Shown piece after piece: positions 1 through 5,233 of a stretch of 13,824 nt of DNA (positions within the stretch are counted from its first letter, which is position 1; each line of letters starts with the position of its first letter). The notes below the pieces were generated by a model. It did no database searches, was not told where the DNA came from, and saw only the letters and a list, made by a program, of their open reading frames with translations. Source of the stretch: Terriglobia bacterium. GTDB taxonomy: Bacteria > Acidobacteriota > Terriglobia > UBA7540. The position numbers and the translations under genes are program-made. The DNA is taken from contig JALHUF010000680.1 of assembly GCA_022866195.1 (NCBI GenBank), forward strand, positions 1 to 13,824. The letters are read 5' to 3'.

Positions 1-69
1 ATCGGGCCATCGGACCAGCGAGACATCGGGCCATCGGACCAGCGAGACATCGGACCATCGGATCATCGG
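1..69. repeat. 24-base tandem repeat, two perfect copies plus a decayed third
   Basis: Bases 1-24 and 25-48 are identical copies of a 24-base unit beginning ATCGGGCCATCGGACC. From base 49 the same ATCGGACC / ATCGGATC sub-motif continues in degenerate form to about 69. The array may extend left beyond the window edge. It lies just upstream of the promoter of the first gene and has no reading frame of its own. Its function is unknown; it looks like a simple intergenic minisatellite. Confidence 0.75.
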
Positions 70-1794: not shown

Positions 1795-1823
1795 TTGACT
1801 TTCGCTTTTTCTTCGCCTACGCT
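1795..1823 (+). promoter_or_regulatory. Possible promoter of the polymerase cassette
   Basis: A -35 element TTGACT at 1795-1800 is followed after 17 bases by TACGCT at 1818-1823. The -10 is weak (3 of 6). The -35 region CTTGACTTTCGC is identical over 12 bases to the one in front of the gene at 5773, which supports a real promoter type in this genome. No recognisable LexA-like operator is seen around it. Confidence 0.4.
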
Positions 1824-1847: not shown

Positions 1848-2507
1848 ATGAGTAAGACCGATGAGACGGGTGAGACTACCTTGTCACCCTCGCGGCCCTG
1901 GCAATTGCCCGCGCACGGGCTGGCAGTTTTTCAGGGCCAAGGCGATGTGGCGCGGCTCAGCCACTACTTCCTGCCCCGCCTGCTGATGCAGGGCAAGCGC
2001 GTCCTCTTTCTCGACGGAGCAAATTCCGCCGACCCGCGGCTCATCGCGCGGTTCGCCCGCGAACGCCACGTGCCCTTCGCGCAGTTCAACCGGCAGATTG
2101 AAATCGCTCGCGCCTTCACCTGCTTCCAACTCACGGAGCTGATCGCGCGCGTGCCGCAGTTCCTGGAAGATTTCCCCGCCGCAGCGCTGATCGTCACGGC
2201 CTTCCCCGATCTCTACTATGACGAAGACGTGCGCGACTGGGACGCGCGCGTGGCGTTCGAGCAAGCGCTCGCGAACCTGCGGCGGTGGGTGAGTTTGCCG
2301 CTCTCCGTCGCGGTTTTTTCCTCTGCTGAAACCTTTGCTCCGCCCGCAGCCCGCCGGCGCTTTTTCGAACGCGTGCGCACCACCGCGACAGAAGTGTGGA
2401 CGTTCCGCGCGGGAGATGACCAGCGGTTGGGATTGACCTGCGAGCCGGGACGGCCGCGACTCAGATGTAGCGCCGGTCCCGCTAAAGCGGGACCGATATG
2501 GCGATGA
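1848..2507 (+). CDS. RecA/ImuA-like protein lacking a P-loop, linked to family B polymerase
   Basis: The protein has 219 residues from an ATG preceded by AGGGG seven bases upstream. The ORF is open further upstream (to 1608), but that part is intergenic in character. The fold pattern resembles the RecA/RadA core: strand HGLAVFQGQGD (23-33) where the P-loop should be, helix, strand RVLFLDGAN (51-59), and a Walker B-like strand AALIVTAFPDLYY (112-124). The GxxxxGK[ST] motif is absent, so ATP binding is doubtful, as in the inactive RecA-like protein ImuA. It heads a three-gene set with a small protein and a divergent DNA polymerase, so I infer a scaffolding or loading role for that polymerase during damage tolerance. 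The last ~17 residues (RLRCSAGPAKAGPIWR) are encoded by a palindromic repeat and are probably not ancestral. The RecA-like call rests on pattern and context, not on a profile hit. Confidence 0.6.
   Translation: MSKTDETGETTLSPSRPWQLPAHGLAVFQGQGDVARLSHYFLPRLLMQGKRVLFLDGANSADPRLIARFARERHVPFAQFNRQIEIARAFTCFQLTELIARVPQFLEDFPAAALIVTAFPDLYYDEDVRDWDARVAFEQALANLRRWVSLPLSVAVFSSAETFAPPAARRRFFERVRTTATEVWTFRAGDDQRLGLTCEPGRPRLRCSAGPAKAGPIWR
2466..2497 (+). repeat. GTAGCGC-type palindromic element, copy 3, overlapping a gene end
   Basis: TGTAGCGCC is followed by a perfect 9-bp inverted repeat (2475-2483 with 2486-2494) centred on GCTAAAGC. The same centre occurs in the second unit of the element at 4274-4323. 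It encodes the last residues of the RecA-like gene and lies just before its stop, so it appears to have rewritten the C-terminus. Confidence 0.7.
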
Positions 2508-2562
2508 AGCCGCCGGGGCCCACGGCACGCCGGGGCGGGCGGCGGCACTACCGAGGTGCCTT

Positions 2563-2916
2563 ATGGGCCGAACGATTGCCACATTTCGCGAACTCGTCGA
2601 GCAGGAATTGCAATCCTGGGAGCGCGTCTTTGGCCGCGCCCTGCGCCGGGAAGAGCGCGCCTGCTTCGCGGCAATGTTCAACCGCGTGCGTCTTTACATT
2701 CAGGCCTGCACCTACGAATTCCCCGTGCACGCCATGGACGCCATCAATGTGACGGTCGGGCTGGACCACGAGATTCGCCTGCGCGCGATGGAAGCGCGTT
2801 TGGGGATTAACCTTGAGACTCAGTGGATGGATTCTCGACCTCTATCCGTCAGCCGACGGAATGACGCTGTGGCTGATCCCGCAGGGCGGGAACCAGAAAC
2901 GCCACCGGCTGATTGA
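2563..2916 (+). CDS. Small helical protein of the polymerase cassette
   Basis: The protein has 117 residues. Its ATG is preceded by GAGG with a 6-base spacer. The first ~82 residues (from GRTIATFRELVEQELQSW to ARLGI) are rich in charged and hydrophobic residues in a helical pattern, with no membrane segment or known catalytic motif. The tail (about 83-117, WMDSRPLSVSRRNDAV...) is read from DNA that also encodes the polymerase N-terminus in another frame, and looks non-native. A lost stop or a small frameshift near 2806-2815 may have extended it. I do not recognise the family. Its position between the RecA-like protein and the polymerase suggests an adaptor role in one complex. Confidence 0.65.
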   Translation: MGRTIATFRELVEQELQSWERVFGRALRREERACFAAMFNRVRLYIQACTYEFPVHAMDAINVTVGLDHEIRLRAMEARLGINLETQWMDSRPLSVSRRNDAVADPAGREPETPPAD

Positions 2917-5233
2917 CCCGTCGTTCAAGCCGTGCTTCTACGTGCACGGCCCTGAGCCGCGGTTGCGGCGTCTGGGGCAGGCGCTCGCAGCCCGCGCCCG
3001 CCTGACCTGCGCGCTCACCGAGCGGGCGAACATCTGGGATGGCCAAGGGCTTCGTGTGCTTCAGGTATCGGTCCACCACCCCACGCAATTTGCCTCGCTC
3101 GCGCGCTTTGTGCACCGCTACGATGCAGGCCTGCAGCTCTACAACTCCGACCTGATGTTGGCGCCGCGCTATTGCTGGGAGAAGGGCGTGTTTCCGCTGG
3201 CCAGAGTGGACGTGGAAGTAAGCGAATGTACAGGCTCGCCCTCGCCATCGGGATTCGGGATGAAAAATCCTTCCTTCGCGAATCCCGAGTCCCGAGTCCC
3301 GAATCCCGAAGTACGCGGCATCGAGTGTCGCGATGACGAGTGGGCAATTGATTATGAGCTGCCGCCGTTCCGGGTGATGCAGATCCGCCTGGAAGGGCTT
3401 GCGCAAGTTGATCCCAAGCACGGCCGGCGCGGCGCCCTGGAGGTGGAAATCGACGGCGAGTGGCGCGTGCTCGACGACGCCGACGAACCTGTGGCCGTGG
3501 GTTTCGAGCGGCTCCTGCGCACGCACGACCCAGACCTCATCGTGAGCGAGTGGGGTGATTCGACGCTGTTTCCGGGACTGCTGGGGCAGGCGCGGAGACG
3601 CGGCCTCGAACTCTCCCTCAACCGCGATCCTGCTTGCGGCGGGACTGTGCAGCGCAGCCGCGCGCGCAGCTACATGAGCTATGGTCGCATTCTCTTCAAA
3701 GGCAGCACCACCACGCTTTTCGGGCGTCTGCACGTGGACACGCAGAATTCTTTCGTCGCCGACCGGTGTGACCTCGTGGGCCTGTGGGAACTGGTGCGGG
3801 TCACAAAACTTCCCGTGCAATACTGCGCGCGCACGACTACCGGCACAGGCATCTCCTACATGCAGATGGAGCTGGCCTACCGCGACGGCGTGCTCATCCC
3901 GGAACAGAAGGCCGAACCGGAAAGCCCCAAGCATCCCGACGAACTCCTTCTCGCCGACCGTGGCGGGCTGGTTTTTCCTCCGCGACTGGGGTTCTTCACG
4001 AACGTCGGCGAGCTGGACTTCATCAGCGAGTTCCCGAGCATCATGGCGCGCTTCAACGTCTCACCCGAGACCGTCAATTGTCGTTGCTGCCCGAACGCCC
4101 CGCGCGTGCCGGAGCTGGGCTACCGCGTCTGCCAGCGGCGCCGGGGCATTACCAGCCGCGTGGTTGAGCGGCTGATTGCCAAGCGCGAGGGGTACAAGGC
4201 GCGCATCAACGCCGGGCCTGTAGCGGCGGTCTATGACCGCCGAAACGGCGATGAGGACATCGCCGCTACAGATGTAGCGCCCCGACCTGTCGGGGCAGGT
4301 GCCGGGCTAAAGCCCGGCGCTACGGATCAACGCCACAATTACCAACTCCGCCGCTCGGCGCTGAAGTGGCTGCTAGTCTGTTGCTTCGGCTACACCGGTT
4401 ACAAGAACGCCCGCTTCGGCAAGATCGAGGCGCACGAAGCCATCAACGCGTTGGCGCGCGAGAAGCTGCTGGTAGCCATGGAGACCGCCGAGCGCGCCGG
4501 TTTTCGCGTGCTGCACGCGCTGGTCGACTCCCTCTACGTGCAGCGCGCGGGCGCGATGCGCGCGGACTACGCGCATCTGGTCCGGGAAATCGAGCAACGC
4601 ACGGGCCTGCCGATGGCGCTCGAAGCCGTGTACCGCTACGTCGTCTTCCTGCCTTCGAAGCAATCGCCTGAGGTGCCGGTGCCGAACCGCTTCTTCTGCG
4701 TGCCGGAAGACGGCGAGATCAAAATCCGCGGCCTGGAGTGCCGGCGGCACGACACGCCGCCGCTGGTGGCCCGGATGCAGCGCGAAGCACTTCAGATCCT
4801 TGCTGAGGCGCATGATTTTGAAAGCTACTGCCGGAAGCTGGAAGAGGCCCGCGAGGTGCTCGAGCGCTATCTGGCGCGGGTGGAGGAAGGCAGCGTGGGC
4901 ATCGAGGAACTGGTCATCAGCCGGCGCCTGACGCGCCCGGCCAACGGATATAAGCACGCGAGCGCTACGGCCATCGCCGCGAAGCAGCTCGCCCGCGCCG
5001 GCGTCGCGTTGCGCCCGGGAGAAACCATCGAGTACATCCTCACCGACACCGACTCAAACTACGCCGACGACCGCGTCCGCGCCTTAACCATGTGGGAAAG
5101 CTGGCGGGGCTACGATATCGAGGAATACCGCCGGGCGCTGCGGGAAGCCTTCAAACCCCTGGAACAGTTCGCCGGCCCCAGGGAACCTGTAGCGCAACGC
5201 TCGCCGTTCAGCGTTGCGGCTCCTCGACCTTGA
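2813..5233 (+). CDS. Divergent family B DNA polymerase (PolB2-like)
   Basis: The protein has 806 residues from a TTG start; GWILDLYPSADGMTLWL right after it is typical of the family N-terminus. Visible in order: an exonuclease-like domain with DVE (133-135) but without clear ExoII and ExoIII residues; motif A as LDFISEFPSIM (401-411) in place of D..SLYPS; a cysteine group C423, C425, C426, C440; motif B ALKWLLVCCFGYTGYKNARFG-like (517-536); motif C as LHALVDSLYV (567-576), which keeps the second Asp (D572) but lacks the first of the usual DTD; and a thumb region to about 785. I recall the archaeal PolB2/Dpo2 clade, linked to damage tolerance, as also having altered catalytic motifs. Proofreading is probably lost; polymerase activity is uncertain. 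Two repeat-derived segments are inserted in frame (about residues 139-168 and 469-504), and the C-terminus from about residue 792 is also repeat-encoded. The gene overlaps the preceding one by 104 bases. Confidence 0.85.
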   Translation: MRLSGWILDLYPSADGMTLWLIPQGGNQKRHRLIDPSFKPCFYVHGPEPRLRRLGQALAARARLTCALTERANIWDGQGLRVLQVSVHHPTQFASLARFVHRYDAGLQLYNSDLMLAPRYCWEKGVFPLARVDVEVSECTGSPSPSGFGMKNPSFANPESRVPNPEVRGIECRDDEWAIDYELPPFRVMQIRLEGLAQVDPKHGRRGALEVEIDGEWRVLDDADEPVAVGFERLLRTHDPDLIVSEWGDSTLFPGLLGQARRRGLELSLNRDPACGGTVQRSRARSYMSYGRILFKGSTTTLFGRLHVDTQNSFVADRCDLVGLWELVRVTKLPVQYCARTTTGTGISYMQMELAYRDGVLIPEQKAEPESPKHPDELLLADRGGLVFPPRLGFFTNVGELDFISEFPSIMARFNVSPETVNCRCCPNAPRVPELGYRVCQRRRGITSRVVERLIAKREGYKARINAGPVAAVYDRRNGDEDIAATDVAPRPVGAGAGLKPGATDQRHNYQLRRSALKWLLVCCFGYTGYKNARFGKIEAHEAINALAREKLLVAMETAERAGFRVLHALVDSLYVQRAGAMRADYAHLVREIEQRTGLPMALEAVYRYVVFLPSKQSPEVPVPNRFFCVPEDGEIKIRGLECRRHDTPPLVARMQREALQILAEAHDFESYCRKLEEAREVLERYLARVEEGSVGIEELVISRRLTRPANGYKHASATAIAAKQLARAGVALRPGETIEYILTDTDSNYADDRVRALTMWESWRGYDIEEYRRALREAFKPLEQFAGPREPVAQRSPFSVAAPRP
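3249..3311 (+). repeat. In-frame repeat insertion in the polymerase exonuclease domain
   Basis: A perfect 12-bp inverted repeat pairs CGGGATTCGGGA (3249-3260) with 3297-3308. Four tandem 7-base units GARTCCC run from 3280 to 3307. The translated stretch FGMKNPSFANPESRVPNPE is low in complexity and breaks the polymerase between DVEVSE and IECRDDEWAIDYELPP. No stop is introduced and the frame is kept. Confidence 0.75.
4219..4323 (+). repeat. In-frame composite palindromic element in the polymerase fingers region
   Basis: The element has exactly 105 bases (35 codons) without a stop. It is built from two units, each bounded by inverted GTAGCG ends: 4219-4228 pairs with 4261-4270 (10 bp), and 4274-4280 pairs with 4317-4323 (7 bp). 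Inside are further perfect hairpins: 4225-4231 with 4235-4241, 4246-4253 with 4258-4265, 4280-4286 with 4289-4295, and 4301-4308 with 4311-4318. It encodes the PVAAVYDRRNG-type segment just before motif B of the polymerase, a plausible solvent-exposed loop. Confidence 0.85.
5189..5224 (+). repeat. GTAGCGC-type palindromic element at the polymerase gene end
   Basis: TGTAG is followed by a perfect 9-bp stem (5193-5201 with 5210-5218) around an 8-base loop CGCCGTTC, then GGCTCC. It matches the copy at 1589-1622 in layout and loop pattern. It supplies the last codons of the polymerase gene; as an RNA hairpin without a T-tract it is not a classical terminator. Confidence 0.7.

Follow-up and report, generated by a model that had tools for sequence, protein, structure and literature searches.

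We analysed a 13,824-nucleotide stretch of DNA from a Terriglobia bacterium (hereafter the window), which is the entire contig JALHUF010000680.1 (C590 in our set) of assembly GCA_022866195.1 (G000; 727 contigs, 85.4% complete, 2.7% contaminated). Positions 1848-5233 of its + strand hold three tandem genes behind one putative promoter, encoding iRadA, PPB2 and the family B DNA polymerase PolB2. Judging from sequence comparison, this cassette is probably an acidobacterial PolB2 mutasome (we put the probability at roughly 0.8), predicted to be induced by DNA damage via LexA and to be used in place of the ImuA-ImuB-DnaE2 set of sister genera.

The system itself is known. An operon that joins PolB2 with an inactivated RadA and arCOG07300, at times also with lexA, was described from several bacteria as well as archaea (Makarova et al. 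2014, PMC4104785; here and below, PMC accessions stand for the sections of each paper that were available to us). It was later named the PolB2 mutasome, with bacteria having only the iRadA-PPB2-PolB2 order and with a 1:1:3 complex modelled in 40 complexes (Timinskas et al. 2025, PMC11791011). We therefore rejected the idea that the cassette is a new analogous system. An initial annotation of the window had proposed a mutasome that might be described in part: the proposal agrees with the published prediction and that it had been described was right, but "in part" understated how closely these two papers describe it.

The bacterial PolB2 mutasome has so far been a computational prediction, with activity known for the archaeal polymerase. 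Two additions, a promoter box shared with lexA and a near-exclusion with DnaE2, were not found in the cited papers or in literature searches. Both lend support to the mutasome reading, would link the bacterial set with the SOS response, and are the parts we consider worth following: Acidobacteriota are a group in which a role of PolB2 as an inducible mutator could be tested, and in which any switch from one mutasome to the other could be traced between sister genera.

The three proteins and their conservation

The initial annotation placed three consecutive genes on one strand behind a shared promoter, and its coordinates are correct (Table 1). There is a 104-nt overlap between genes 2 and 3, and PolB2 homology starts at about 2822 in a 10-sequence alignment. 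We compared the window with a set of 84 PolB2 loci (80 of at least 569 relatives from a polymerase scan, three related bins and the window itself), in which iRadA was matched in 75 and PPB2 in 76. Wherever all three genes could be placed (73 loci), they had the same order and strand. Co-occurrence in other genomes, on which the initial annotation had staked its reading, is thus upheld, and chance is excluded because the order is kept in 73/73 placeable loci from several phyla. PPB2 was found in 21 of 61 related genomes, all 21 of which also have PolB2 and iRadA. In six of the nine loci without iRadA, the contig extends upstream for less than 1.2 kb; in the other three (L093, L106 and L120), the absence of iRadA looks real. 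Two loci depart from the usual layout. One acidobacterial locus (L080:5130-5996) has iRadA and PPB2 in one open frame, an iRadA-PPB2 fusion of the published type. In another (L081:3-2564), PPB2 is missing and a piece of iRadA lies in the same open frame as a PolB2 that lacks its first 48 residues; this may reflect gene fusion, decay of the copy or misassembly at the contig start.

Gene 1 had been called RecA-like without a P-loop. On its own, it matched no usable Pfam or NCBIfam family (one chance match, E 0.3) and nothing useful in the PDB; the link with RadA became visible only with an alignment of homologues. The profile of 64 homologues matches RadA in the PDB (E 8.9e-11, profile positions 27-138), and 25 of those homologues match Pfam Rad51 (best E 5.9e-5). 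An AlphaFold model of gene 1 (mean predicted local distance difference test score, pLDDT, 87.5) also has RadA/Rad51 as its best Foldseek matches in the PDB (first match: E 1.3e-10, template-modelling score 0.65, 17% identity). Because both profile and fold matches are to Rad51/RadA, the protein is RadA/Rad51-like and not bacterial RecA-like: the expected RecA-superfamily fold is there, nearer to RadA/Rad51 than to bacterial RecA. The Walker A pattern GxxxxGK[ST] is absent from all 74 iRadA stretches, and the positions standing out in 26 stretches are DGxNxFD-, RAFTCxQ- and DE-like. iRadA thus has the RadA/Rad51 core fold without the N-terminal domain and without Walker A, as in the published definition of the PolB2 mutasome. 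When 199 genomes of a phylum sample were scanned with the single iRadA sequence, it was found in its own genome only.

The second gene is, as annotated, small and helical: the AlphaFold model of its 117 amino acids has three main helices and a short fourth (pLDDT 80.6). By itself it matched no usable family in Pfam or NCBIfam. PPB2 proteins are characterised as helical and about 90 amino acids long, with an N-terminal MGRT. This start is well conserved, with MGRT in 71 of 76 stretches, MGRN in three, GRT after GTG in one and a start elsewhere in the frame in one. Foldseek of PPB2 against the PDB returned nothing at E <= 0.001; the rank-19 match (E 8.9), to the N-terminal domain of a sigma factor, is in line with a published remark but proves nothing.

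Gene 3 is a family B polymerase (Pfam PF00136, E 2.3e-20; 386 bits against NCBIfam PRK05761.1-2, under the 516-bit cut-off) and carries the D(K/R) motif described for PolB2 (PMC11791011). Its altered catalytic motifs, also annotated initially, are a family trait: in all 71 tree-set sequences, the first Asp of DxD is replaced, and the Asp of motif A is retained together with the distal one of motif C. At what we take to be the exonuclease motifs, Exo I is not conserved among relatives in the 10-sequence alignment, and the archaeal PolB Exo II sequence NGDSFD aligns to WGDSTL, so that Asn and the last Asp have become Trp and Leu. The proofreading exonuclease therefore appears to be inactivated or degraded.

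These losses would also suit a PolB2 without catalytic activity that serves, together with iRadA and PPB2, as a scaffold for regulating replication or for clearing stalled forks. Such a role was proposed for the family in 2008, when the polymerases were described as inactivated (Rogozin et al. 2008, PMC2527604), and again in 2014 (PMC4104785). We consider this quite unlikely, since retention of the motif A and distal motif C Asp in 71/71 sequences is not expected if a dead enzyme drifts, and since archaeal Dpo2, itself a PolB2, is an active, robust polymerase that lacks an exonuclease and can extend mismatched ends (PMC8764526). Dpo2 is also induced by DNA damage, and targeted mutagenesis depends on it alone (PMC7390963).

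The PolB2 gene contains two in-frame inserts made of dispersed repeats (Table 1). With self-matches and overlapping loci counted, blastn gave 50 matches in 19 loci for the first and 23 matches in 12 loci for the second. Both leave the reading frame open, and like repeats occur in relatives' polymerase gene or elsewhere.

A putative LexA operator in the promoter

The motif TTCGCYTTTNNTTCGCC was seen upstream of lexA in related genomes (lexA itself was located in 22 of 30 loci). The window has an exact copy before iRadA, at 1801-1817, which is the sole match there at up to two mismatches (0.10 expected). The box recurs in relatives: of 33 acidobacterial cassettes whose upstream sequence spans 350 nt or more, 32 have it at up to two mismatches (27 exactly), compared with 39 of 6269 control windows from the same loci. 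Aligned cassette promoters give the consensus CTTGACT-box-TATnnT.

An exact box also precedes 27 of the 28 strong lexA matches (E < 1e-15) in the window's family, ending 32-155 nt 5' of the DNA-binding domain; in nine of the family's 37 genomes, lexA gave no match or a weaker one. Those 37 genomes contain 118 exact box sites, against two for the reversed pattern. Box-flanking genes were inspected at part of the sites, and ten of their proteins were scanned with Pfam, giving DUF72, RecA-like, Y-family polymerase, DinB, two radical SAM, DEAD helicase, IrrE-like peptidase and LexA, the tenth having no match. The window's own genome has two exact copies of the box, one at the cassette and the other beside a DUF72 gene (L227:199-1137, contig C617). 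By eye, DUF72-like genes adjoin the box in other relatives too (L210 and L242), and lexA, SRAP and DUF72 genes have been reported as enriched near polB2 (PMC11791011).

The 17-bp box is likely a LexA operator, which remains a putative assignment made from its genomic positions. No lexA was found in the window's own genome, and the proposed LexA control of this copy is drawn from its relatives. Alternatively, the box could mark a regulator that responds to damage or stress but is not LexA: it is a direct repeat and stands in either orientation beside genes. We judge this unlikely, given that a box before 27 of 28 strong lexA matches fits autoregulation and that most of the ten scanned neighbour proteins are of repair or SOS type.

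If the box is a LexA operator, LexA bound to it would block RNA polymerase, and DNA damage, by causing LexA cleavage, would lead to co-expression of iRadA, PPB2 and PolB2. In the published model, PolB2 would be held by iRadA through a contact like that of RadA oligomerisation, and also by a PPB2 trimer whose MGRT arm would reach the active site. PolB2 could then extend primer ends past lesions without proofreading, and the set would fill the slot held by ImuA-ImuB-DnaE2 in sister genera.

PolB2 and DnaE2 as possible alternatives

We counted both polymerases at three scales, and all p values below ignore ancestry and bin incompleteness. Among the 61 related genomes, none has both, 23 have PolB2 only, 21 DnaE2 only and 17 neither (Fisher p = 3e-6). 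For genomes of the window's family, the corresponding numbers are 0, 18, 7 and 12 (p = 0.008), and for its genera, there are 11 with PolB2, five with DnaE2, two with neither and none with both (p = 0.0025). Across 399 genomes of the class, three have both, 41 PolB2 only, 227 DnaE2 only and 128 neither (p = 8e-14), a count dominated by a few large families. The window's own genome (85% complete) has no DnaE2 beyond a 19.8-bit match. In other phyla, DnaE2 is over the cut-off in one of 45 PolB2 genomes, a figure that comes without a baseline.

These counts depend on thresholds. DnaE2 means an NF004225 match over the cut-off, which leaves a partial 618-bit match of G030 uncounted. In the 61 genomes, PolB2 was counted at E < 1e-50, dropping G031 (38.6 bits, a fragment) and G058 (24 bits, 23% identity). 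In the class sample, 10 of 54 PolB2 matches were dropped as weak or fragmentary (G031, G036, G323, G333, G351, G455, G494, G497, G546 and G562), and DnaE2 is present in several of those genomes, e.g., G333, which has a 90-bit PolB2 piece with a stop. The three class-sample overlaps (G315, G371 and G439) rest on the best E-values among the matches listed, so a split DnaE2 in another PolB2 genome could have escaped.

Both systems carry the box. Four of the family's seven DnaE2-bearing genomes have it exactly before an imuA-like gene (L251, L252, L253 and L233, the last from G001, where dnaE2 is on a separate contig). With one mismatch, it lies upstream of the imuA-like gene in L254 and beyond imuB in L257, where imuA was not called; in the seventh genome (L256), the contig ends before the box region. 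In front of imuA, it mostly points the other way. In operons L251-L254, the first protein is Pfam RecA and the second IMS. The imuA-like proteins score 46-52 bits against NCBIfam ImuA, whose cut-off is 150 bits, and calling them ImuA therefore depends in part on gene position.

Gene 1 of the window was considered as a candidate ImuA and is probably not one: 25 of 64 iRadA members match Pfam Rad51, ImuA-like proteins match Pfam RecA, and an iRadA alignment compared with one ImuA-like protein reached a probability of 11% (E 0.0026), a value that decides nothing by itself. The window's polymerase belongs to family B, so the cassette lacks the DnaE2 that characterises ImuA-ImuB-DnaE2. The initial annotation called the two systems analogous and non-homologous. 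This is right for the polymerases (family B versus family C) and only in part for the first subunit, because iRadA and ImuA both belong to the RecA/Rad51 superfamily.

On balance, we lean slightly towards the archaeal-type PolB2 mutasome and the DnaE2 mutasome being interchangeable modules of one acidobacterial SOS regulon that use the same LexA operator and rarely occur together, with replacement between PolB2 and DnaE2, in one direction or the other, having taken place several times. The same non-overlap could reflect lineage history only, without functional replacement, as a few families dominate the class-wide counts and presence is clustered by genus. We regard that as a possible but somewhat doubtful explanation, given the exclusion between genera of the window's own family and the presence of the same box on both operons. 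The main text of PMC11791011 does not contain DnaE2, ImuA or ImuB. In the available sections of a 2026 survey of bacterial polymerases (PMC12926913), the PolB2 mutasome is mentioned and a DnaE2 exclusion was not found.

Several observations weigh against a LexA-controlled PolB2 mutasome that replaces DnaE2. Exclusion is not absolute, as 3 of the 44 PolB2 genomes of the class sample also have DnaE2, and G058 has DnaE2, so its dropped PolB2 match would add one overlap to the 61 genomes. The own assembly, in which lexA was not found, is 85% complete. One cassette of the 33 (L061) has no box, and the 33 are not independent (e.g., L034 and L057 are closely related). The box, a direct repeat, faces the other way in front of imuA and several further genes. 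The loci of other phyla that were searched showed no box in the 500 nt before iRadA, apart from one match with three mismatches (L127). Known LexA boxes were also rare in such loci, with GAAC-N4-GTTC in 3 of 13 from Chloroflexi, 0 of 18 from Bacteroidota/Ignavibacteria and 1 of 6 others. A simple pattern for the beta-clamp motif found none in the last 50 residues of the window's iRadA and PolB2; the motif is known in only a fraction of PolB2 mutasome members. Finally, iRadA occurs without PolB2 in 4 of the 61 relatives (G021, G035, G039 and G054).

Some iRadA copies outside the cassette have a context of their own. The orphan of G035 sits near a contig end. In G039 and G054, which bear DnaE2, iRadA directly follows lexA (L186:6897-8038 and L187:8727-9697), with no PPB2 or PolB2 match in either genome, and the G054 copy is a C-terminal half only; these lexA-adjacent orphans are possibly relics or have a LexA-linked role of their own. 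G044 has, in addition to a full cassette, a second iRadA (L190:7559-8338); a separate box precedes this copy (L204), and its 16-kb stretch holds neither PPB2 nor PolB2.

Distribution, known systems and surroundings

PolB2 record titles include Acidobacteria, Chloroflexi, Armatimonadetes, Methylomirabilota, Bacteroidetes/Ignavibacteria, Deltaproteobacteria and Nitrospinae. In a polymerase tree of 71 sequences with a haloarchaeal root, 13 of the 14 acidobacterial sequences form one supported group, and the fourteenth lies apart with low support.

The polymerase also matched 114 plasmid records, whose ten most frequent genera are all haloarchaea, and four phage records of Leptospira LE1 type. Of these 118 records, 12 were checked (nine plasmids and three phages, two of the phages near-identical), with iRadA in 10 and PPB2 in 12, the PPB2 match in L141 being weak. 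Homologous cassettes on haloarchaeal plasmids and in Leptospira phages raise the question of whether the window's cassette is part of a mobile element and serves that element rather than the host. This is very improbable: no phage or transfer gene was seen among the ten scanned flanking frames of the window, and an IMG/VR scan with the polymerase (a single protein) gave no confirmed relative. A prophage location was rejected on the same ten frames.

Some of these mobile records have details of their own. The LE1-type phages L142, L143 and L151 carry iRadA, a PPB2 homologue and PolB2 in unchanged order; the main text of PMC11791011 has no word beginning with phage or Leptospir. On Halobacterium salinarum plasmid PHS2 (L141:2040-6638), an IS200/IS605 transposase gene lies between a PPB2-like frame and PolB2, and no iRadA was found in that stretch. 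An annotated SRAP gene adjoins the cassette on a Halalkalicoccus plasmid (L150:1655-5638), as published for the family.

The window's cassette shares with the published PolB2 mutasome the three families, the bacterial gene order, the MGRT start, the D(K/R) motif, the lost first DxD Asp, the degraded proofreading domain and a RadA fold without the ATPase site. It differs in having no clamp motif by the simple pattern, two repeat inserts in PolB2 and an SOS-type promoter box; the published bacterial link with LexA consists of neighbouring lexA genes (PMC11791011), whereas here it is the box. Sulfolobus Dpo2 has the same family, catalytic pattern and operon partners, and damage induction is published for Dpo2 and presumed here. 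Orc1/Cdc6-type regulators act in the archaeal damage response (PMC11791011), where LexA would presumably act in the bacterial one, and the direct translesion evidence that was found is archaeal only. ImuA-ImuB-DnaE2 is likewise a set of three genes, with a RecA-superfamily protein first, an error-prone polymerase last and, in the same family, the same box; it differs in its family C polymerase, its Y-family ImuB and its ImuA-like protein (Pfam RecA, versus Pfam Rad51 for 25/64 iRadA homologues). Escherichia coli Pol V (UmuD'2C-RecA) is an architectural analogy drawn in PMC11791011, but it has a Y-family polymerase, another small subunit and an active RecA.

Table 1. Features of the cassette and its promoter (window coordinates; PolB2 residues counted from 2822)
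Feature	Position	Strand	Remark
-35-like hexamer TTGACT	1795-1800	+	By eye; relatives' consensus CTTGACT directly 5' of box (32 cassettes)
Putative LexA/SOS operator TTCGCTTTTTCTTCGCC	1801-1817	+	Fills the 17-bp promoter spacer exactly
-10-like hexamer TACGCT	1818-1823	+	By eye; relatives' consensus TATnnT
iRadA, RadA/Rad51-fold protein without Walker A, 219 amino acids	ATG 1848 to stop 2507	+	
PPB2 (arCOG07300-like), small helical protein, N-terminal MGRT, 117 amino acids	ATG 2563 to stop 2916	+	Names from PMC4104785, PMC11791011
PolB2, family B DNA polymerase, 806 amino acids	TTG 2813 to stop 5233	+	
In-frame insert FANPESRVPNPE, dispersed repeat, in degenerate exonuclease region	3248-3330, approximate	+	Gap in most of 10 rows
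D(K/R) motif (ADRGG), residues 379-380	3956-3961	+	D379 invariant, K/R next (10 sequences)
Motif A Asp (ELDFISEFPS), residue 399	4016-4018	+	Invariant in 10-sequence alignment, 71/71 in tree set
In-frame insert AAVYDRR...GLKPGAT, dispersed repeat, between motifs A and B	4214-4336, approximate	+	
Motif C distal Asp (HALVDSLY), residue 569	4526-4528	+	First Asp of DxD is Leu

Matches in the ten scanned flanking frames of the window are to BNR_4, AMMECR1, CDP-alcohol phosphatidyltransferase, an HflX-type GTPase, Hfq, IPP transferase, TonB, an oxidoreductase and LpxI, with one frame lacking a match. The contig starts with a perfect 24-bp tandem duplication (window 1-48), which is possibly an assembly artefact.

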